Part shown: piece by piece, positions 1-44,900 of the stretch
Position numbering within the stretch: the stretch's first letter is position 1
Layout of the letters: each line of letters starts with the position of its first letter
DNA from: Pegea sp. RAD2-039
Lineage: Eukaryota; Chordata; Thaliacea; Salpida; Salpidae
Assembly (NCBI GenBank): GCA_034620365.1
Contig: JAQGEQ010000161.1
Coordinates: forward strand, 744,001-808,000
DNA: 64,000 bases
Direction: 5' to 3'
The notes under the pieces: generated by a model
Database searches by the model: none
What the model was told of the DNA's origin: nothing
Seen by the model: only the letters and a program-made list of their open reading frames with translations
Made by a program: the position numbers and the translations under genes

Positions 1-674
1 AAGCCAGCAGTAACAGTAGAATGCTTTCATGAATAATTAAACCTGCATAACGGTATCTGTCCATATGAAAAACTGAACAACTAAAACTAAACATCTGTAT
101 ATATATATGCTGTTTATACAAATAAATTTCCTTATATTCTAATTTATTAACAGATTTTTGAAATCTTTGAAAGTTTTATGACTTAAAGAACCAACTGAGA
201 GAAAAATTTCAACTTGATGAATCAATAAAGTTTTTTTAAGCTCGTTAAAAAAGCTAATCAAGATAATTCTAGTTACATTTGAAGCTAAAAAAAACTCTTT
301 TAACATCAGACTTATAATTGAAAGTTGATTATATCAAATGACAATCTAAAGATCATATATCAATAGAAGATTTAGATTGTAAAAAGAGAAAACAAATAAG
401 ATGTGCAGTTTATGTTAATTATTTTATTAACATTTATTCTGTAAATAACAAAGTTGTAATTTGATGGAAAGTTTTGAAAGTTTAAAACCAAATTATTGAA
501 ATTTTTGTCAGTCAAAATTAAATAAATATTTGAAACTTTATAAGATTAAAAGAAGAGATAAAGAACACAACAGATTCATTGTATCTAGCTTCTAAAAGAT
601 AAATTGATCTAATCAAATATTTAAAAGATTATTACTATTATATGAAGATGTTTTGTTAAATAATTTCTACAAAC
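1..674 (-). other. AT-rich intron of the QKI-like gene
   Basis: The donor after the KH exon (GTTTGT at 674) opens an intron that runs off the left edge. I see no further KH exon, so the rest of the KH/QUA2 region and the tail lie outside the window. Confidence 0.6.
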
Positions 675-3600
675 CTTTTTTTTATCTCTCATAGACCCTT
701 TACCTCGCACCATAATCTTACATTTCGTCTCTTGCTCTAGTTGCTTAGCCGTAAGTCCTCTTGGGCCAAGAAGACGACCAACAAAATTATACTGTGAATA
801 AATTTACAAATAACAAGTTTAAAAAGTAATTAAAATTATTTTCTAAATATTTGTAATTAAAAAAACTCTTTGATAAATTAGGTTTGATTTTGTTGAAAAT
901 TGAAATTAGTTTTTTAGTAAGCCATAATAACGTCAAAATCGGGTTAGGCTACAATCCAACAGGACAACATTTCCTACTTTATCTTTCAGTTTTACTTTTT
1001 CTTATTTTGCTTACAAGTTTATGTCGGGTTGAGAAAAAATTAATTTGGTAAAAATGATTAATTTTCGGTTTAAAACAAATTCGAGACACAAACTACGCGC
1101 TGATGTTGGAACTTGATTAGTTTATTAGGAAGATTAAAACGGACTTCAGAGCTTGAAAAACAAGAAATATTTTCACCTAAAGCTCAATATAATTGAGTAC
1201 TAACTTCAGGATGATCTTTTACTGGAACATAAACTTTCTCAGTCAAAGTTATTGTTGGTCCTAACGGTGCCGGTAGCTCTAAAGGTTGCTTGTCTCCATT
1301 TTGAAAGAGCATAGAACGAACTTTGACGATTTCTGAAAAAAAAACACATTTTAAAGTAAAATACCAACTCAAGTTTTGTTACTGAAAACTTACAAAGCTA
1401 AAATATCAGTTTAGTAATTACAACAGTTTTAGTATTTTTAAGTAATCATTGAAAACGTGTAGATATAGGCAAGTCTTGTTGATTTAGAAGTTAGGTTTTT
1501 GAAAAAGACATAGAAGTTGATAGTCTACATGAAAATTTTTACTTAGAGACTTAAAGTTTTGTGATTAAATCTTAAATAGCTGCAATTAGCTTAAGTAAAT
1601 AAATTAACCTAAGGTAGATAATTTAAATCAAATATGTAGTATTTGCTTACCAATTCATCAATTTATAAAACAAATAAAATTTCAAAGAAACAATAAATTG
1701 AAAACTAAATAGTTCTTGTTTACCAGATACATTTGAGTAAACAGTTTGTTTGCTATTAAGAAAGTTATTGAATAGGTGAACAAATAAAGTAGCAGTGTTC
1801 TAACAAATCAAAATTTTAAATGAAAACAGAATATTAGGAGAAAACCTTGCATATAAAATTATTTTTATACCCAAGATTATATAAGTAAGTTTAATTTTTG
1901 AGAACTTGTTTGCTTTCTAGTATACACAAAAAACATTTATAAAATACAAACTTGATATAAACTTGGTTGATATAATTTAGCCAAAAACAAAGTAACTTAA
2001 TTTCATGAATATTTTTACTATGTAAAAGCAGATAAAGACATTTTGTTGATAATAAGAAAGCAGCTTTAGAGGTTTCTTAATTTAGTAATATTTACCTTCA
2101 TCCAGTAACCTCTCAGCATGTACTAAAGGTTTTGGATAAACTTGAACAACATTTTTATCTTGTAAAAGTTGTTTTAAGTATTCAAAATTATTATTATGGC
2201 TTATAATATTTTGAGGTGGTTTATTAACAGGTTTCATCAAAACAGTGTGACCATTAACAACTTGAGAGTTGTGCATGGCAACAGAGTTTGGAATTTGGAT
2301 TGTACCACTTTCAGATTTTATCTGATCTAAATTTGAAGGGAATATATGCTTTACAGCAGTATTTAAAGGAGTAACATTAGGCATCATTTTTATCCAATTA
2401 ACTTCAGATTTAAACAAGCAGAATTATATCTATTCAAAAAATCTATTAACTTTAAAAATCTAGATAAAAAGTGTTTGCATTAGAACTTAGAAACAAAACC
2501 TATAAGGTTTTTGATTGTAGTCAAAAATAAGAAACAAGCATTATAACTATAAAATTAAAACAAAATATATTTATATTATTTTGAACAAACAAAAAATTAT
2601 TAAGTCATCAAGTTATACAAGTTAAAATTTAAACATAATTTGTAAACTTAAACAAATAAGAAGTATCAGTAAGCATTTAAAACATCTAAAGATAGTTAGT
2701 AAAACTATATAAGCTAGTCCAAACATATAATAATAGTTTAAATATTTAACTTGGAAAGTAAAAGTTTAGGTTTTCAGAAAGTTAAAATATATCAACTATA
2801 TAAACTTTGTAATATTAAAAATTGATTGAATGGTAAAATATAAATGACCATTGTTAATAAATAAATAAAGTTTAAAAGAAATAAAAGTTTTCAAGTAAAC
2901 TTTGAAAATCTAAACAAAAAAATATACAAAATTATGTATATCTCTTAATAAAAGTCAGCTTTTTAAACTTTATATATTTAGGCTAAAAAAAAGGAGAACT
3001 TTTAGTAAAAGTATTATTAGATCGAGTACTTAAACTTTTTTAGAAGATAACAAAGTAAGCAACTTTATTAAATATTTATACAAAGTATTCATATATTTTT
3101 AAATAATGTCAGCTATATCGATTATGGATAAGTAATCTATGTTATTTTTATATTTAATATTTCTAGATTTATCAGTAATATAATTTTTAATAAATTTGTA
3201 ATTTTTTTAAAGTAAATGACAAAATAAAAATATTTTGAATAGAATTTTCAGTTTAACATTAAAATAAACATGCATGATAGATACATTTATTTTTAGTTAT
3301 GTCAAAATGGCAAGAAGAAAAAATAATCAGACTTTAAAAATAAACTATCATTTGCTAATAAACAGATACGATAAATCAGAAAGTAAAGCATAAAATAATG
3401 CAGAATCATGAAACCATTTATAATCTAATGCTTCAGCTTATAATTAAAATTTAATATCCAGTGCTATAATTTAGAATAAAGCATAAGGTACACAAAATAA
3501 ATCACAAACAATAAACTACTAAAAAGAATGCTTGATTAAAACATATCAATTTAAAAACTGATATCTGAATTTATCACAAAAATAAAGCTTACAATTGTTG

Positions 3601-5716
3601 GCAAACTAAAGAACAACAGGAAATATTCAATTGATAAATCTCAACCACATAGCAACAAAACCAGTCAAATGAATTCAGAAACTAAATACAAATTAAGAAT
3701 GAAACAAAGAAAAACGTGAAACATATTTCCTAAAACTGACAAGCCATATCCTAATAACTTAACCACATTTAAATGCACACTATATACCAGCTGACTGAAA
3801 AACAGAAAAGTTAGAATCATCAGTAATTATAGCTGACATGAATAAAGTAAATCCAGCCTGTCTGTGATCAAAGATGGCAATTGAAGTAAGCACCTCAACT
3901 ACGGAAGCAATATGAAAACTAGTATCCTGTTTTTATCCTCACAAATAAAATTGAATGTTTGAAACTAAACAGCGCCTGTAAGCGGCATTTATGTTGTCTG
4001 GGTAAAAATGGCTTTTTAAAGCTTAAGTATAAGTTCATATTTTTTTAACTAAAATTTTCTACAAATATTTTTTGTATTTATCTGATACAGAAATATTTTT
4101 CTCGCGAAACACACCAAGAAAATTTATTTCTTTTATTTAATTAGGTTAATACAAGATTACATTACTTTATTTTTAAAAAATAGTTTAAACTATATTTATG
4201 CCTAAAATTCGTTTTGAACGAGATTTGTTTAAAAAATTTTTTTAAATATTTAATTTAATAATATTTTAATTGTTAAAGAAATTTTATGTATAAACAATAA
4301 CAGCAAAATACTCCTAAAAAACCTGACTTGCCAATATTACTTAACTGCATACACCAATAGTAAAAAGTGTTAGTTTTTTTATAGAGAAAAAAATGATTAC
4401 AGGGTAAAAGATAATTTTTCTAAAATGTGAATTATAAAAATAGATATATTAATCGCTCATAAATAATGAAACTCTGAGGTATAACTATTTACATCAAATA
4501 ATCTTTATTAAGCTGCTGGGATTTTGTTTAGGGTTTTAAAAAATTATTAAATTTGTTATTTTTCTAACAGGAAAATGAGTTTTAAGGCTCTGATGATTGT
4601 TGTGGGCCTTTAAGATACTAAATATTTTTGTTATATATGCAACAAAAAGTCTTAAAATCATTCGAAAATGAATAAATTAAAAGAACGCTATTCAAAAATA
4701 TTGCAGTTTTCTAAAATGTTTATAAACAAAAGCTTCAATTCTTATTTTAATAAATCAGTTTTAAACAAACTTTTTGAATAAAACCAAATACTTTTTTAGA
4801 AGTGATAATGCTTTATCAATTACAATTTTTATTGTAAGCTTTCTTAATTATGTTTCAAAGTATGTTTTTACCTTCGTCCAAAATTCTTTCAAGGTGCAAA
4901 AAACATCCAGTAAGCCCTTGCACTTGCTTCTTGTCTTGTAATAACTGTTTAAGATAAAGACATTTATCTCTAACTTTGACATCTTCTTCCCTAAACTGGA
5001 TAGGACTAGGTATAGCAACAGTATTGTTTAGTATTGAGTTTGAAGCCGATGTTATACCTAAAAAATTAATTAACCTTTTTTAATTTCAATTTTAGAAAAT
5101 ATTTATATCTAAATAAAAAGTGATACTCCTTTAAAATTGTTAAACTTTTTAAACGTGATCTAAAATTTATAATATAAAAAACGTAGCTTAAAATCTTTAT
5201 AAAACACATGTAGAGATAAGTTTTAAAATAAAATTAAAAACTCAAATAAAATTTGCATGTGATAATGATTATTTACTAAATTAGCTTTAGTTAAATTGGG
5301 TTTGAATGATAATGACAAATTGAAATTAGAATTCAGCAAAGTTTTAAATATATTTATTTAATTATTTTTGTGACAAATTAAAACCAATTTGATGTTAGAA
5401 CTAAACTAACTATGATTAACTAATGGTTTTATGTAAATAGTTTGCCAGAAAAACTTTATAAAAAAAGATTTTTAAATATGTTGTAAAATACGTTTTAAAA
5501 TACTTGAATATTAGAAGTACCTGAATTAGATAAAGGCGACGTGCTGCTGTTGGGGTTGACTAGTTGTGACTGTTGATAGTTTAAATGAGGCTTGGGAAGA
5601 GGAGAGGGAGCTTGTAGTTGTAAGTGAGTTGTCTGAGCCATTGGAGGAGACAAGGAATTTGTTTGAGCAGTGTGTGCTTGATGAGAGGTAATAAATTGAA
5701 GTTGCATAGGCTGCAT
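675..5716 (-). CDS. QKI: Quaking/HOW-like STAR RNA-binding protein, 3' incomplete
   Basis: STAR-family proteins dimerise through a QUA1 helical hairpin and bind RNA through a KH domain plus QUA2, controlling splicing and mRNA stability. Exons by phase: 5521-5716 (Gln/Pro-rich N-terminus from ATG 5716, with in-frame stops 35 nt upstream), then 4872-5057 and/or 2096-2401 (two versions of the QUA1 exon), 1205-1332 and 675-791. The 1205-1332 exon reads EIVKVRSM then a stretch ending [12 protein letters not shown], matching the QUA1-KH linker. The 675-791 exon (117 nt, phase 0) has [11 protein letters not shown] with the GxxG loop GPRG and ends SMRDKKK, the same exon edge as in vertebrate QKI as I recall it. 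All joins keep phase. The gene continues off the left edge. Upstream 5' UTR exons are possible but not identified. QKI/HOW fits better than the Sam68 branch, but I could not align. Confidence 0.88.
2096..2401 (-). other. QUA1 exon version B of the QKI-like gene
   Basis: A 306-nt exon, phase 1 in and phase 1 out, bounded by GAAG| and |GTAAAT. Its end codes [13 protein letters not shown]...HAERLLDE, a QUA1 helical hairpin. The first 70 or so residues are low-complexity and unrelated to version A. It has its own in-frame ATG pair (2387-2382), so it could also begin a shorter isoform from a downstream promoter. Splicing onto 1205-1332 keeps frame and gives ...LLDE-EIVKVR. Confidence 0.8.
3790..4010 (-). 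promoter_or_regulatory. Possible internal promoter or 5' exon between the two QUA1 exons
   Basis: This patch is visibly less AT-rich than the surrounding intron and lies upstream (minus strand) of version B, which carries its own ATGs. No TATA box or initiator is clear, so this rests on composition and position only. Confidence 0.2.
4872..5057 (-). other. QUA1 exon version A of the QKI-like gene
   Basis: A 186-nt exon, phase 1 in and out, with acceptor TTTTTTAG and donor GTAAAA. It ends [13 protein letters not shown]...HLERILDE. By eye 17 of the last 28 residues equal version B, and both are three residues shorter in the hairpin loop than human QKI as I remember it. It has no in-frame ATG, so it needs the 5521-5716 exon upstream. 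Confidence 0.82.
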
Positions 5717-7372
5717 CTTTGCTGATTTTTCACCAATTAATTTGAGGAAAAATTATTAAGTTCTTCGTATTCACAAAAAGTTCTCAATAAATGAAGCAAA
5801 ATGGATTAATTACTTTTTACTTTTTGGCGGTTAGTATTATTAGAAATAAACTTAAATAGTTAACACGATGGCTTCTTTAAGAAAAAAACATAAATGTAAA
5901 AGTTAAAATAAGATTGAAGCAAATAAATTTGTAAATAATTTAACATCCAAATGTATTAAAAGTAAATGATGAACTAGTGAAAACTACCTACACTAATATA
6001 ATTACTAAAGATTATTAACTAAAGCTTAACATTCAACTTCATCATAAGACCTTAAACTATAAGAGCAAGCAGAAAAACTGTAAAATGATACTTCCAAACT
6101 GTAATAATAATAAAAATTTGATAATCTTTTTCTATTTTATTACATCTCCCAAGAATTTTTAAAGAAATAGTTTAGTCAACTAGTAGTTTGCTTATCCGGA
6201 ATTTTTACTAAAAAGTACAACAGAAACTGTTTTATGAAAATTTTTCGCTTTCACAAAGCCTTGGGCGATGATTTTAGCAATCTTTTAGTAATCTATACAT
6301 GAAACAGTATGCAAAAACATACTGAGTACAATATAATGACAATAAATTGTATAAAAGACTTTGTTAAAATACAAGTCTCAAACTAATTAATGGTAAGGTA
6401 TTAAAAAAACTAACTTTATTTTTTCCAATGAGTAGAAAAGCAAAAACGTAAGCGACACAAACTAATTAGCTTTTATTACTGATGTGTTTTGATTCATTTT
6501 TGAAACAGTTATTTCGCTATGAGGTAAGCGAACTGATTTTTACAACTTTTTACAAAAAATATTTTAACTCAAACACAACACGCGTAATAAATGTGATTTT
6601 TTTAATAAGCATGTAGTGACAACTAATTAATGTAGAAGTTATTAAGGATTTGTTACAAAAGAGATAACTTTATTAAGACTTTTATTATTACAAACGCTAA
6701 GATTTTCAATTCTTAAGAAAGTGGCATTTATTAATATTTTACAGAAAGTTAAATTTAAACTTTAATAAATCGATCAATTTTTTTAATTTGAAAAGCATTA
6801 AAAAAACTTGACATAATTTTTACGATTAAATACTTTATAAAACTAAATCTTGTTATTATTAATACTTTTGAAGTATGAAAAAATAATTTCCATCTTTGAT
6901 GGATAAAAAAATAATTTAAAAATTTATATATATAAATATATAAAGATTTATAATATAATAAGAATTTATATAAAGATAAAAAAAATTTGTGAAACATCTT
7001 ATTTGTACTATTTAGTCAATTACTAAATTACAAATTTAATTTGTTAAAAAAAAGTTTTTTTGCAAGTATTTTTGAAGATTAAAAAGTCGATCAAACTAAA
7101 ATGAATCATTTTGTAAAAAAAACTTGTTCAAAAAAGATGCAGTGAAAAATTCAACTTTATAGTACACTTAAATCATTTATTTCCCACATACATTAAATTT
7201 TTATTTAAAGAGTTTTATGTTTTCACTATTTTAGCTTTATCTGTACAAGTATCAAACAAATTATTTAACAAATTTGAATTAAAATTTCATCTTTTTGGGT
7301 TTTCTTTATGTATCAAAAATTACAAGAAAGGAGAATAACCATAAGTTGTATATGACTAGACCTTCTAAAAAG

Positions 7373-7387
7373 TTAGGGTTAGGGTTA
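7373..7387 (+). repeat. Short interstitial TTAGGG repeat
   Basis: Two and a half units of TTAGGG in unique AT-rich DNA. TTAGGG is the common metazoan telomere unit. This run is too short to be a chromosome end and could be chance. Confidence 0.4.
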
Positions 7388-8189
7388 TATGGCTTGACCT
7401 AATGTTGGTTGTGACTCATATATACTTAAAGCAATCAACCAGAACAATAGTGTTAAAAAGAAAGTTGAAAATACTAACTAAACTGGTAGAACTAGTTTTA
7501 AAAAGACTAGAATGTTTGCATATTAAAAAGCAATCGTATTTTTACGCAAAAATCTTTTCAGGTAATATCAATTTTATTATCATCAGAATGATATCTTTAA
7601 AATTTCAAAAAGTTTCAACTATTTAACAACACTTCTGAATTTTTGAAAACCACTCATTTATATTCTTTTAAGATTAATCTTTTAATATCAATTAAAACAG
7701 TTTGAAGAAAAAAAATTCTTAAACTCGTTTCATGTAACATAATGAACAGTTTTAATTACTTTTTGATTACTGGTTTATGATATTTTCTTATAAAACTATC
7801 ATTTAATTTCTAAAAACTCTCTTCAAAGATTTATTAACGTGATAGAAAATAATCAGTAAATACATTAACATATAATTATATGATAGTATAAATATAGAAG
7901 CTCAAAAATTCAACTTAAAATTAATATAAAATATTATATCAATACATAAAACCACTCTTCTTTAGCTTCAAGAATTTGATTAACATTAAAAAAATACTTA
8001 AACTATTTTTCATTAACACTATAAGCAAACACTTATTCATCTTTCCAGACCAACAGAATTTTACACTAAAACTCTTTCTTTAAACTTCTTAAACTACAAG
8101 AGTTCTGCTGAGCTATCTCAGCCGATTCGACTTTTTTGAAGGTTTAAGACTGATAATATTGTCTTGCTTTGTAAAAGAAAAAAATGTTA

Positions 8190-8620
8190 ACTATGTGATC
8201 TCTTTTCGCTTTAAATGCAGACGAGAACTCAACGAGCTGCACCTCTGTGCACATACAATATATACAGTGTAAGCCTCTGATTTTACGTGGGGTTACCTTC
8301 ATGCTTGGCTTCATTTTTTTCTTCTGAATACCCCGTTTTCAATCGCACCAATAGCAATGCAAGCTGTATACTTCACGCTTCAGTAAGTTTGTCGATAGAA
8401 AAGTTGTTCTAAAGCCTCTTTTATTTCTTCAGTATTTAAAGTTAAATACGATACATAGCAATTTTGTACTTTTATCTGCACTACAACTAAACTTCTTGCT
8501 GCTATTGTATACTTCTGGCACGCATCGCTTTCAGCACTTACTACTAACTGTAGTTCGCCTAAATTGCTTCAGGCACTTACGATTGTAGTTAGTTTTGGAA
8601 GTTTGCAGTACAAAGAAATA
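8190..8620 (-). promoter_or_regulatory. GC-richer island, candidate distal promoter/5' exon of the QKI-like gene
   Basis: The island stands out from the AT-rich flanks. On the minus strand it carries two good donor-like sites (ATCGTAAGTGCC and AGTAGTAAGTGC), as expected for an untranslated first exon of a minus-strand gene. No open frame is present and no core promoter motif is convincing. Confidence 0.22.
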
Positions 8621-10124
8621 AATGATTCGCTAATAAAAGCCTCACAAGACTGATTTAATTCTGTCTTTCTGAAAAAGTTATTTTTTAAACTTGCTTTTAT
8701 TCATTCAAAAAACCTTTTTAAGCCTAATTTCTCTGACTGTATTTAAAATCTTAGCATTTTGTAATAAAACTTTTATGTGAAGGAATGAAAACTTTTTATG
8801 AAATTCTCTACACATATTTCAAGTTAATTTTTTTTTTAATTTTTAAAAAGTTTTAGAAACTTAATTTAGATTTTAAACTTGTTTGACTGTTACACCAGAA
8901 GTACAATTAGATGTCAATAATTTAAAGGTTTTATAGTTTAACTTCAAGAGGAATATAAAAGCTCATAAATAAGAAAAATATTAGAATAACTTTCTCCATT
9001 CACTTTAAAGGTTAGTAAGTATTTTATTTTGCTTGTTTCAGTAACTAACAACATTTATATGAATATCACTTAATAATTGAAACCTTTATTTTTCTTGTTT
9101 TATCGTATTTGACTTAAATTTATCAAACTAAGTGTTATTTGCTTCTTTACATAAACGGGTATAAAACGTTTAAAAAGTTCAAAATAAGATATTTGTTGTA
9201 TAAAAAAACAATGGAAATATGTATAATACAGTTTCGTTTGGTTTTTTTTCAAAATAAATTCATATTCTTATTCGAGATTAAATCATAAAATAGTTGCAAT
9301 TCTCATTACAACTATGAAAAGCATTTAGTTTTTATGATGTATTGTTACTTTAAATGTCCCTATAAATAGTCCCATAAATAAAATACTCTTTATAAATATC
9401 ACAGAAACATTTTGAGCCAAAATTTTTACAACTAATGAAGAGGATAATGAAAATTTTACCTTAATTACACTTAATTAATTCAGTTGATATGACAATAAAG
9501 TGAAACTATTCTAATGGATTTTTACAAGTATTGATTTAGACAAAGGTAGAAAGTAACTTTTAAGTTTTAGAAGGAAATTACAGTTTTTGTAAAATCTTCA
9601 TAATTCGGATAACTATATGCTGTAATACTAAGGAAATCAAACGTAAGTTTTAGCAAAGCTTTTGGCACTAATCTATTAATATTTTAAGCTCTTTTTGTTG
9701 TATCTCAATCTTAAAATGTTTGAATGAACCTTAAAAAAAACAAGTCTGACGAGCTGAACAGTCTTTTAGATAGGTTTTATTCATATTTTAATATAAACAA
9801 ATTCAATTTTAAACAAGTCTTGTGCTAAAATACATCACTAAAAATTATTTAAGTTTTTATTGGTTGTTTCAAAAGTTCAATCCTATTTCTACTAATAAAA
9901 AATGTGGCTATATCCTCTACTGTAACTTGTAATATTATTAATTGAATAAATGATTTTATTTCTTTTTATAAAAACTATTTAAGCAAACTTAAAATTGTTT
10001 TATAATTAATTTTTTTTGTACTAGATAGTTGATTTATATTTATCAACCTTTTATTTATATAATTATAATTAGTTTAAATGTAAAAAAACTACATCTTAAA
10101 TGTTAAAATGATATAAGTTAAAAT

Positions 10125-10199
10125 GAGAATGTGTGTTAGCGGGAGGTGCTCTTTTTAGGCACCCTCCTTCACGTTAATTAAAATAAATAAATAAATAAA
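10125..10199 (+). mobile_element. Extreme 3' tip of a LINE (about 75 bp)
   Basis: This matches the 3' end of the element at 26490-26995: GAATGTGTGTTAGC, then the hairpin 10142-10167 (GGAGGTGC paired with GCACC(C)TCC, one bulged C), then an AATA-type tail. Only the last 75 bp or so are present, typical of severe 5' truncation during target-primed reverse transcription. Confidence 0.8.
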
Positions 10200-13100
10200 G
10201 GACTTGAGATTTTTTCTAAACTAAGAAAAAATACTTGAAATTGCTAATGATGGTTTTGTTCAATCAATTCTCATAAGTATCTATCATTTTTTATACATAT
10301 TTCAGTATTCTAATGAATTAGGGTCCCATCAACTTTAAACTTGATTGGTAAAATAATTAAATGAAGTTTTGGTTATCAAAATAATTTGCCTAAAATAGTT
10401 AAATTTTATGATAAAATTAAACTTTTCATAATTAATTGACGATAAAAATTGTACCCAAATACAACATTTCTAAGTAAGTGAATAAACAAGTAAATAAACA
10501 AAAGAAAAATATAATCTTCTCAAGAGTAAAAAAAAGAGGTTTTTAAAGATATCTTTCTAGTTTTGCTAACAGATTATTCATACATACATAATCAAAAATG
10601 TGGTATTTACTGTACAAACATCTTTTCGAATAAAACTCAAAATTGTTCAAGAAATAAAAAATCCATCAGGTAAAAGCCATCAATTGTTTGAAAATCTTTT
10701 TGTAGTAATATTTATCATTATAAAAAATTCAAAATATGCTAACCATTAATATTGTTGACAAGTTAAAAAACAATTTTTTGCTTTTACAACATAGGCATTT
10801 ATTGGTTTATTCAATATTAATGTTCTATACAACTTATAAAAACAAGTTCAAAACAATAATTTTATTGAGTTATTTGAAAATTTTCGTATGCAATATTAAA
10901 GGCCTGCAACTTATATAATAACTACGCCCTGTTTTAAATTGCAGACAAAAGAAGATGGTAGTAAAATTACACGCTTTTAGTCAACCACACCTTGATTCGT
11001 GTTGAATATCTTCACAAAGAAGCCATTGTAGCTGGTTTAGACTAAAATAGACAATTTCTGTTCATAATAACCTAGATAAAAGACTAAAATGTAAACTTAA
11101 AGTGTTTAAAAAGTTAAAAATTTGTATTTCTTTTATTTTATTTGCCAAGTTTTCTAGTTTTAAATGAAATAACTGAAAATCTTTATAAGTTATTTTTCAA
11201 CGTTATTTTTTTGCAAGTTTTAAAAGATTTCTCAATAAATCACAACACGTTTTGTGACAAAGGCTGGTTTAATTTCAACTTAAAATATTTAATCATAAAC
11301 TCAAATTTGATTAACAGCAAAATTTGTCAAATTGTTGAGAAAAAGTACAAATTTAATATCAAATCCACAAACTTTATTTGAAGTTATCAAGTCCTTTTAT
11401 TATTTAGACATAAGTAATCTTTCGTTGGTTACTTGTAAAATTAAATCATTTTCGAAATAAATTTTTTGTCAATAATTTGATCGGAATTTTTATAACTTAA
11501 ATCGCAGCTTATAATCTGATACTTTAATCACATTTTCTATTCTTATCGAAACCGGCGAAAATAGAAGTTTTCATTCTTTAAAAACTTGTTGTTGTTCCCG
11601 TTGTAATATAAACGCAAAAATAATAGACTTATTATTAAGCTTCATCTGATAAAACTTTTTTAATCTTAAGAAAATTTTTGTTTTTAGCTAATTATTTTGA
11701 AAAACAACTTTGCTTTTTCACATCAAACAGAAAACTGAAAATTTGTTTTTCGTTAAAATATTTTTAGGAGAAAATGAAAATCAGTTGAATCTATTTAAAG
11801 TGAAACTCTCATTTGTAAATATTTGAGATAGGTTACCACATTGTCGTCAAATCGTTCTCGTTTTTAAACTCTTTGCTTTTACCTTTTCTCAATTTCTGAT
11901 ATTTACTTATTTGGTCACTTTTTACTTGATCCATTTAAAATGACTAAAAGGTAGAATAGCTAGCCGTATGTCCAGACTGACTCACCTTTTTAGTTTGACC
12001 CATGACTATTTTAAGGTCCAATTGCTTTATGGACCATACTGCGTATGTTTTTGTTACACTTACGGTATAATAAATCAAATATTTTCAACTTCTATTTTTC
12101 TAGTTAATTTATTCATGTGAAGCGTGTAGATTTGATTAGTGTTCAAATATTTTGTTCGTTTTTTTTTTCATTACAACTTAGCAACATTTAAAAACCCTGG
12201 GTTTCAGGTCTTACAGTCAAATCGATTTATTTAAATCTTTTATCATTTCATCAGTCACACAGTAGTTAGAATATTATTGCAATTACTCATTGTTTTCAGG
12301 ATTTATAAAAATAGAAAATTTTGAATTTAAGTATTTGAAGTATTTGATGAAAATTGAGTTTAAACGTCTTACTAAGATTAAACATAATTCATTTGCGAGT
12401 ACAGCAGAAATTTTAATAAATTCTTTGATGTTAGAAAAATGATAATCATTTGAATTTTTCTTATGTAAGATTTAACGTTAACTTATTTCTGCTTAAAAAA
12501 TGTTGTTTCAAGTTATTTAATTTAATTTTTCATTTACAACAAAAGTGAAACATAAAATACTTTCTGAAAATAATTGGTATTTAAATACAAAACGCTTATA
12601 ATATAATTCAAAACAATCCTACAAAAATACTTCAATATCTCTAAATTAATTACCAAACTTTTAATTTTTCAAAATATGAAGTAAACGTTTTGACATCACA
12701 CACCAACTAATGCAGAGAGCGGAAACCATGAATTGAAGTAAAAATGTTTAAACAAAAGAATAGTGTTTGATTTAGTTTATACTCTTTATTTACTGAATAC
12801 GGATACTGCATTTTTCTTCAGCTTCTTTCAAATATTTTAATCAAGAAAACACAATCGCCAATAACATCTGTACTAAGTACATGAGAATTTATTTCTTATA
12901 CTTCTGCCATTCAGATTGATTTAAATCTTTGATTATAGTTTAATCACTTATAAGTTTTTAGCGATTAATATGATCTTTATTATTTCATAAAGAAAATTAA
13001 ATGGTTATCTTGGAGTAGAAAGTGCAATATTTGGCAATCATGAAAAAGTTTTGTTGTTAATCAAACTTATCGTTTATCTATTTACAAGCATACACAAATT

Positions 13101-41938: not shown

Positions 41939-44900
41939 TTAAAATCGGGTCATTTCAGCTGTATCATCAAAATCAGGTTTTGAAGATGTTGGAAGAAAAG
42001 GTTTGCGGTTGCTGCTGTTGTTCAGGTTTGATTCAACCGGATGTTGCTCATTGATGATAGTAGGAAGTGGAGGAGGAAGGGATGCTGGTGGATCTGTTGG
42101 ATGAGATTCGATGAAAGTTTGGCGTCGGCGAGCTGCTATTGGTGGTTTAATGACGCGTGGTGCGTCAGAAGGGGCTGGCGGTTCTGGAGGGGATGTTTGA
42201 GGTTTACTTCGTGATGATAAACGTCGCGTTGCCACCGGAGGGCGGGCAAGAGGTTCAGTATCCGATGAACTCAGTTTTGTTCGCGCTCTGTGACGTCATA
42301 CAATTGCATTAGAAAGCGACGGTGTGAATTATGGAGCAGCTTACTTGTGTTGAAGAGGGTCAGGGGGGGGAGGCGCCTTACTTTTCTGCTTCTTCAATTT
42401 AATCGCGCGATTTTCTGCCGCTGAGCCACTAAAGTATACGAATATGCAAATGAGCATCGAAAACACGTGATCAACTACCTGACGGCGTCACAAACGAAGG
42501 CACCATCAGCACTAGATGTACGAGAATGTCCCTTTGTTGGTTGATTTGGTGGCATTATGACGTCAGCAGTAGTGGCGTCATTATTAGTGACGTAAGAAAA
42601 GGCATCGGGAGTAACAACAAAATCGATTTCTACCAAACAGCGTGGTTAGTGATTGGTTGCTAGGTAACTAGATGGTTAGTTACCTGCAGGAAAGAACCAA
42701 TCGGAATATATGATCATACTCTCGACAATATTTAAGATCAGGTTTGATTCGCGCATGTGGACACTGTAAAAGATGATGTAGAAGGTTAAAATGATGCGGA
42801 CGACTTCTTAAATTGCTTCACAGCAGATAAAAGCAGAAAAAGAAGCTGATCGGTTTCATATCATGTGACTACTTGATGATGTGAAATCTTAAAGCAAATA
42901 AACATCATCAGTAAGTGTTGATGATGGTTGCTGTGAGGGAACTGCAACCAGCAAAACTAACCAGCGACAACTAATCAACCAACCAACCAGTCAACACCTA
43001 CCTTTTACGATGTCGTAACCTTCGACAAATTCTGGAGAAATTACTTAATTATTGATGTTTTGATAAAAAGTTTTGTTAAAGTGTTTTGAAAGCAGTACAA
43101 GCGGACAGATGACATTTAATTAGTGAAAATATTTGAGGAAACGCCTACACCGGTTTAGCATTCAGGAAATTGACAAATTTGTTAATAACTGATTTGGTGA
43201 CGAAATATGGTTAAGGTTCTTTTGATGATGAATATTTGTAAGAATCTGAAATTTGCGCAATTTGAAGTTTGCTTCTATTATTTATATCACAAACCAAAAA
43301 CAGTTTGCTCAAAATGGGATTTTGTCAACTAAAGTAGGTAAGTAAGACTTCTACTTTTATAAATGAACAAAAATGAGAGTCACCTGATATCATCCTTAGC
43401 TGACCACAACATATTAGGAGCCATCACTACAGCGAGATTGGAAGGAGTCATCTTGTTCATCTCACTTTGACTTGCAATCAGTGAGAGAAACTTTATAACG
43501 TATCTTGAAAGAAAAAATTCCGGAATTATGCAACAGTTGAGACGTTGAACTCGACGAACCTTAAATTAGCCATGTGGGTTGGAGGCAATGACTCAATCAA
43601 ACGTAGAATCTCCTGAAGTTTTGCATCATGATCAGTGATTCTAAGATGAAGATATAAGATCTTTTGTAACACTTGATCGGACTTCTACTCACGCGGCAGC
43701 TTTCAACCACTGCGAATGGAGTTCGAAGGTCAGCAGAGGGTCTGGTAATTGACGAAGATATTGTTTCAAGGCTCCTGCTACAGCGTGGATGTCATCATGA
43801 GCGTTCAGCACAACTAAGTCCATTTTTCCTGCATCCAAAATCGCGCGACATTTTCGTAATTTTGAAGTTGAACCAGCAACACGAAAAATTCCCTGAGAAA
43901 GAAGTTTGAAAAGACCGAAAAGTGATCTTATTCAATCTTCTGACCTCTTCTCTTTGAGCATACTCTTTCAGCAAAACGATACAAGCTTCAATAGGAGAAG
44001 CAATCTCCCGATTAGTGACTAGTAGATGATCTTCCAGAGGGTATCCATATGTGGAACGTTTACGGAAGTCCTCTGCAATTAAACAGGTGAATATGTGATG
44101 AGGATCACAAAGGGTACTACCTTGAGTTGCTTGCATTTTAGATTCTGTATTTTCAAGAACTTGAACACATTTTCTGTGATAAGATAAACGTTTTGCGTGA
44201 AGCTGAAATAAGAAGTGAAAATTTAAGAAGAAAGTTAATAAGTTGAAGTTACATCAAGTAAATGTTGGTTGTGTTGACTTTCTCGAGATAAAAACTCGTA
44301 CATCTCTGTGATCAGCTGATCCTAAAAAAGCTGCTGATTAATTACTGATAATGTTTAAAAAGAAACAAACCTTGCATTGTTCCATCCTAGTGGATGCCGA
44401 GTCAAGTTCATCCTGAAGTTGTTCCAATTTGATGCTTGCTTGTTGTGGGTTGTAGTGAAGGGCACTTTGGGTCTTAAACTTTCGAACATTTTGAGCTGCA
44501 TTATCTCTATCTAATACAAGCCGTTTCAAGCGTTCACGTAACTTCAAAATTGCTGGAATATCCACCTTCATTTAACATCAAAACTTGCAAAGGATCACAA
44601 AACGACAAAACATCAGTACCTCAACTAAACTCTGTAAAGGACCTACAACTCTTTCTTCAACGAATGTTTCATATATCGCTTGCTCCATAGCTAATGAAGT
44701 AAAAATATCACCACATACTTGAAGTGAGCCCCTAAAATTAAAAGCTCAAACCAAAAACTCTTGGATTTTCATCCACTTACCAAAGAGATTCATCAAGGAC
44801 ATTATCATTGTCCATGGGAGGTTTACTTTCCAGAAAAGAGATACCAAGATGATTTTCAGGTATTCTTTTCTAAAGTTTAGAATTTTTTACACTAATCAGA

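Follow-up and report, generated by a model that had tools for sequence, protein, structure and literature searches.

Two QUA1 exons in one QKI/HOW-type STAR gene of Pegea sp. and their possible alternative use

In STAR proteins, the QUA1 hairpin brings together two RNA-binding bodies. The isoforms described for QKI and HOW (HOW(L) and HOW(S), and QKI-5 with its shorter variants) differ at the C-terminus, as far as the available portions of the sources go. Here we describe a gene with the same QUA1-KH-QUA2 order and sequence as QKI/HOW in which it is the N-terminus and QUA1 that would differ. It is encoded on the minus strand of a stretch of 64,000 nucleotides (nt) from Pegea sp. RAD2-039 (the window; contig JAQGEQ010000161.1, C44:744001-808000), in a genome of 105.7 Mb and 387 contigs, and contains two versions of the QUA1 exon, which we call A and B.

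The C. elegans STAR gene asd-2 (star-2) can begin with different first exons, of which one serves in muscle, according to the available part of the report (PMC3469465), and this is also the arrangement that we propose here. If both asd-2 first exons carry QUA1, an arrangement of this kind is already known. COE/EBF genes have a tandem-duplicated exon coding for a dimerisation helix, with both copies included in gnathostomes (PMC2394523, accessible part); the duplication is like the one found here, but alternative use appears more likely in our gene. Among the matches listed in a literature search whose coverage left most subscription papers outside, none dealt, by its title or abstract opening, with STAR genes that have alternative first exons or alternative exons for QUA1. 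In mice, the E48G change in QUA1 is lethal, and RNA binding persists but is about fourfold weaker, as stated in the part of the structural study that we could consult (PMC3592866). A natural gene that combines a single RNA-binding body with two versions of QUA1 would allow one to ask for the dimer's own contribution, with the same RNA contacts and different pairing. If both forms are made, two dimer types would perhaps come from one gene.

Two QUA1 exons on a shared body

We searched all six frames of the whole genome with the Pfam family STAR_dimer (cut-off 26.3 bits). Exon A gave 40.9 bits (E 1.7e-8) and exon B 33.2 bits (E 4.3e-6). These two places are a lower bound, since the search missed a further, short QUA1, that of the Sam68-like gene on contig C278, which we found by reading its locus. 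After joining to the shared next exon, the scores were 65.5 bits for the A form and 58.0 for the B form, and the form with neither exon fell under the cut-off with 15.0 bits. Both exons join the shared KH-side exon without a stop. In all six spliced combinations that we built (A; exon 1 followed by B or by the shorter B; B started at its own ATG; A and B in tandem; neither), a single frame stays open as far as the common terminal stop. For A and B, the coordinates, phases and splice joins given in the initial annotation were reproduced, as were the lengths of 186 and 306 nt, and its claim that one QKI-like gene carries two QUA1 exons as alternatives is borne out by the domain scores, the clean joins and the codon-level constraint described below. 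Features are collected in Table 1.

The 3' splice site of exon A is TTAATTTTTTAG and its donor AAG/GTAAAA (the slash marks the splice point). Exon B has the donor AAG/GTAAAT and the 3' site CTGCTTGTTTAAATCTGAAG (AAATCTGAAG/TTAATT), and a second 3' site of the same phase is found 75 nt further in (CCCTTCAAATTTAG/ATCAG, exon 2096-2326). When folded alone as a single chain, exon A gave a two-helix hairpin with a mean predicted local distance difference test score (pLDDT) of 66, and exon B a model that was unusable (pLDDT 33). We also noted that exon 1 joined directly to 1332 (window 1205-5716, minus strand) stays in frame, which would give a QUA1-less protein, formally an SF1-like monomer.

The gene runs from window position 5716 leftwards and beyond the window edge, where the remaining KH, QUA2 and tail lie (C44, about 738.2-741.8 kb). 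Read exon by exon, the protein has a low-complexity N-terminus (exon 1, with an in-frame stop upstream), QUA1, KH, QUA2 and a tail ending in LHPYQRPSGKTATSLQAISV. We inferred how the tail is spliced, choosing its last two 3' sites by phase and resemblance. The A form matched QKI 4jvh with 257 bits in an alignment from QUA1 through KH and QUA2 (residues 99-282), followed by GLD-1 4jvy (240 bits), T-STAR (114) and SF1 (77). Judged by these bit scores, the gene is nearer to QKI/GLD-1 than to Sam68 or SF1. The spliced protein also scores over the cut-off of KH families.

Table 1. Positions of the gene's features within the window
Feature	Position	Strand	Remarks
Exon 1 of the A form, coding part	5521..5716	-	ATG at 5716; phase-1 end, CAG/GTACTT
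Exon A, QUA1 exon	4872..5057	-	186 nt, 62 codons, phase 1/1, no in-frame Met
Exon B, second QUA1 exon, spliceable form of the initial annotation	2096..2401	-	306 nt
Exon B, coding part as putative first coding exon	2096..2387	-	ATGATG at 2387
Exon B, possible shorter internal form	2096..2326	-	231 nt, same phase, 3' site CCCTTCAAATTTAG
Shared exon, supplies the rest of the QUA1 Glu codon (QKI E48) and runs into KH	1205..1332	-	contains VPVKDHPE
Shared KH exon	675..791	-	constitutive
Stretch of elevated guanine-cytosine (GC) content between A and B	3601..4000	.	candidate promoter or 5' untranslated region (5'-UTR) for B

Constraint and dimer interface of the two hairpins

Counted before the split Glu codon, 17 of 29 residues are identical between the two hairpins. 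Codon-shuffled versions of B gave a mean of 3.0 identities to A and a maximum of 10 (5000 shuffles). The codons of 12 of the 17 identical residues are silently changed, and the proportions of silent and replacement differences were pS 0.89 (16.5/18.5 sites) and pN 0.31 (21.5/68.5). In a neutral simulation, hairpin A was mutated at random to the same 38 differences under an AT-rich base model. The runs had on average 7.4 identities and at most 14, none of the 3000 reached the observed identity, and 90% acquired a stop. Silent saturation with much of the protein kept points to long purifying selection on both copies. Both QUA1 copies look old and constrained, in a pair comparison that gives no duplication date and is compatible with recent disuse of one copy.

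Chance resemblance of A and B was ruled out by the STAR_dimer scores together with the shuffles and simulations. A second gene copy or an allele as the source of B was rejected as well: a DNA search with 1900-5760 returned the region itself and one short match in the A-B intron, and a protein search with B matched B and A alone. A 75-base piece of this intron (window 2575-2649) has a 79% match on C1 (5921298-5921375) and is perhaps a dispersed repeat.

Regarding the dimer interface, the available part of the work on Xenopus Quaking (PMC3592866) gives, in QKI numbering (minus 24), the polar contacts Y17, Q20, D24, H40, R43 and E48 and the non-polar contacts M28, L31, I37, F38, L41 and L44. A and B are both identical to QKI at all six polar positions, E48 being completed by the shared exon. 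For the non-polar contacts we compared the five unambiguously aligned positions (28, 37, 38, 41 and 44), leaving out L31 near the loop, a place at which A and B lack three residues relative to QKI. Here A has V, C, F, L and I and B has V, P, L, A and L, so that four of the five differ, with a hypergeometric P of 0.06 against 11 of 28 positions differing overall, for positions chosen after seeing the data. According to the same portion of that source (PMC3592866), an alanine substitution lowers the melting point by 16 degrees at QKI F38 and by 32 at L44, and raises it by 4 degrees at the GLD-1 counterpart of L41.

As the polar dimer residues are the same in A and B, mixed dimers are plausible. 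We read both hairpins as able to dimerise, perhaps with different strength. The initial annotation had suggested that alternative helices could make non-mixing dimers, which an interface with six polar residues in common and a non-polar difference of this size does not establish. A non-polar divergence that makes the A and B forms prefer their own kind, resulting in two dimer pools and possibly a QUA1-less monomer on one RNA-binding body, is in our view unlikely.

Hairpin A is closer to QKI (18/29 identities) than B (14/29), and both share 11/29 with GLD-1. The loop length is the same as in GLD-1 QUA1, and the B form matches the GLD-1 QUA1 entry 3k6t with 31 bits, whereas no isolated QKI QUA1 entry passed E 0.001; still, B has fewer identities to GLD-1 than to QKI. 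Exon B also contains a Thr-Pro (MMPNVTP; window 2367-2372, minus strand), and the N-terminus of the A form has four Ser-Pro and no Thr-Pro. In HOW, ERK phosphorylates Thr-Pro sites and thereby enhances dimerisation, as the accessible part of the report describes (PMC3315481).

How exon B may be used

We favour, at a probability of roughly 0.5, the reading of exon B as an alternative first coding exon. According to this, one QKI/HOW-type STAR gene would give two N-terminal forms that have the KH-QUA2 body in common and a separate QUA1 hairpin each. Exon 1 (Met 5716) would start the A form, into which the internal exon A is spliced. The B form would come from a second promoter within the A-B intron, with exon B as its first coding exon (Met 2387) in substitution for exon 1 and A, and both forms would be spliced at the same phase-1 boundary in the QUA1 Glu codon. 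The QUA1 exon would have been duplicated long ago and both copies retained by selection. For the two forms we infer separate promoters, use in differing cells or stages, and a somewhat differing dimer strength or partner preference.

We base this preference on B's own ATG and on the architecture of a paralogue. The frame of exon B begins at 2423, just behind an in-frame stop that lies 12 codons upstream of the ATGATG (2387). AAAA precedes this ATGATG, and from there the frame runs on through the hairpin. With this start and the upstream stop, the coding part of B may do without a 3' splice site. Exon A has no Met and hence needs exon 1, and each form has a start codon of its own, at 5716 for the A form and at 2387 for B. 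The paralogue is the Sam68-like STAR gene of the same genome (C278:40501-46500), with the coding part of its QUA1 exon at 43180-43288 and its KH frame at 41954-42265. Its QUA1 exon, like B, carries a start codon, here at the beginning (MTETSSSSDSTYLPELMAEK...), and it ends in GAAG/GTAAGT, a donor boundary and phase common to A (GACGAAG/GTAAAA) and B (GATGAAG/GTAAAT). So, an ATG-bearing QUA1 exon is an architecture used by another STAR gene of this genome. The Sam68-like gene has a single QUA1 in the 6-kb stretch, a hairpin of Sam68 type (33.7 bits to 2xa6).

The stretch 3601-4000, which may be the promoter or 5'-UTR region of B, has a GC content of 32.5%, at the 96th percentile of 1860 overlapping 400-base windows with little open frame. 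A similar elevation is seen upstream of exon 1 at 8101-8600 (36.8% over 500 bases, the first 400 of them at the 99th percentile). The stretch also holds, at window 3783-3839 (minus strand), a short open frame to a possible phase-1 donor (GCTG/GTATAT) in frame with B, which may be there by chance.

Several observations weigh against a first coding exon. B has four in-frame Met, and an ATG with an upstream stop is a weak sign; stops are abundant in introns, which makes the one upstream of B at most suggestive. About one window in 26 is as GC-high as 3601-4000. The outer 3' site of B ends in AAG and has no pyrimidine run above 3, and the longest runs at the five constitutive 3' sites are 6, 10, 3, 7 and 6 and at the two inferred tail sites 4 and 7. 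The constitutive 3' site of exon 675-791 equals the outer site of B (six T, seven pyrimidines, longest run 3), the chief difference being the ending, AAG versus CAG, and the inferred last exon has an AAG 3' site too. Since the outer site is no poorer in pyrimidines than a constitutive one, splicing of B as an internal exon is possible and the odds of a first exon are lowered. Splice strength is judged here on the five constitutive and two inferred sites, seven in all. An intron search of the genome (33 introns) yielded no splice consensus and was set aside, as was a self-trained gene finder that over-split everything.

Mutually exclusive (or cassette) internal exons are a tentative alternative that we hold to be short of probable. 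Exon 1 would then be joined either to A or, at 2401 or 2326, to B, and if both were skipped the product would stay in frame and lack QUA1, which is formally the state of SF1. The joins of exon 1, A and B are all in phase 1, no combination that we built is interrupted, and the inner 3' site of B at 2327/2326 has a pyrimidine run of 8 bases. By one measure or more, both candidate 3' sites of B lie within the range spanned by the other sites of the gene. The 61 nt from the ATG of B to this inner site score as coding in the frame of B only (3.1 nats; other frames -4.4 and -19.9), which counts weakly against the shorter internal exon. The three introns were searched for QKI-type and other splice-regulator sites, and none of the motifs ACTAAY, ACTAA, TGCATG, GCATG and TGTGTG nor the bipartite site is over-represented there; the flanking introns have two ACTAAY for 4.2 expected and no bipartite site for 1.7 expected. 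Internal, mutually exclusive use of A and B, as first annotated, remains compatible with the frames, although an alternative first coding exon appears to fit B somewhat better, given its own ATG and a layout that matches the QUA1 exon of the Sam68-like paralogue. We also rejected self-regulation through QKI-type RNA sites, as those motifs are not enriched in the three introns.

One could also argue that exon B (or A) is a duplicate no longer in use. A coding-potential model trained on 75 open reading frames against 272 null frames, which surely include real exons and lead to poor separation, returned in-frame values above zero for exon 1, A, B and the two KH exons. The values for A and B were weak (0.07 nats per codon, with means of 0.18 for the training frames and 0.03 for the null). 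The model also gave 7.7 nats to an unproven frame at 3783-3932. An earlier model from 13 open reading frames was overfitted, with negative in-frame scores throughout, and was set aside. Against disuse stand the codon-level constraint, the domain scores and the donor kept at the same boundary in both exons, and we consider it improbable.

Least probable of all is inclusion of both exons in tandem, raised in the initial annotation and resembling the duplicated helix-loop-helix (HLH) helix of vertebrate EBF/COE (PMC2394523, accessible part), which the frame allows (539 codons with the stop) and nothing further in the sequence indicates. Some 72 linker residues would separate the hairpins, and joining to the 306-nt form would turn the Glu that closes hairpin A into Val (LDEV), at a position where E48G unfolds the QKI hairpin according to the part of PMC3592866 available to us.

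Tail and neighbouring sequences

A possible alternative tail end was noted in the part of the gene beyond the window (stretch L003, 5815-6225 and 4118-4288). Read-through of the donor TTATTAG/GTGAGT gives LLGELN and a stop, which would replace splicing to the HPYQR exon. We take the HPYQR motif of the tail to be the one known from QKI-5 and HOW(L). Within window positions 1-12000, no tRNA or known RNA gene was found. Next to the Sam68-like gene on C278 there is an open frame at 43477-43953, which resembles ribosomal protein S10 and may encode it.

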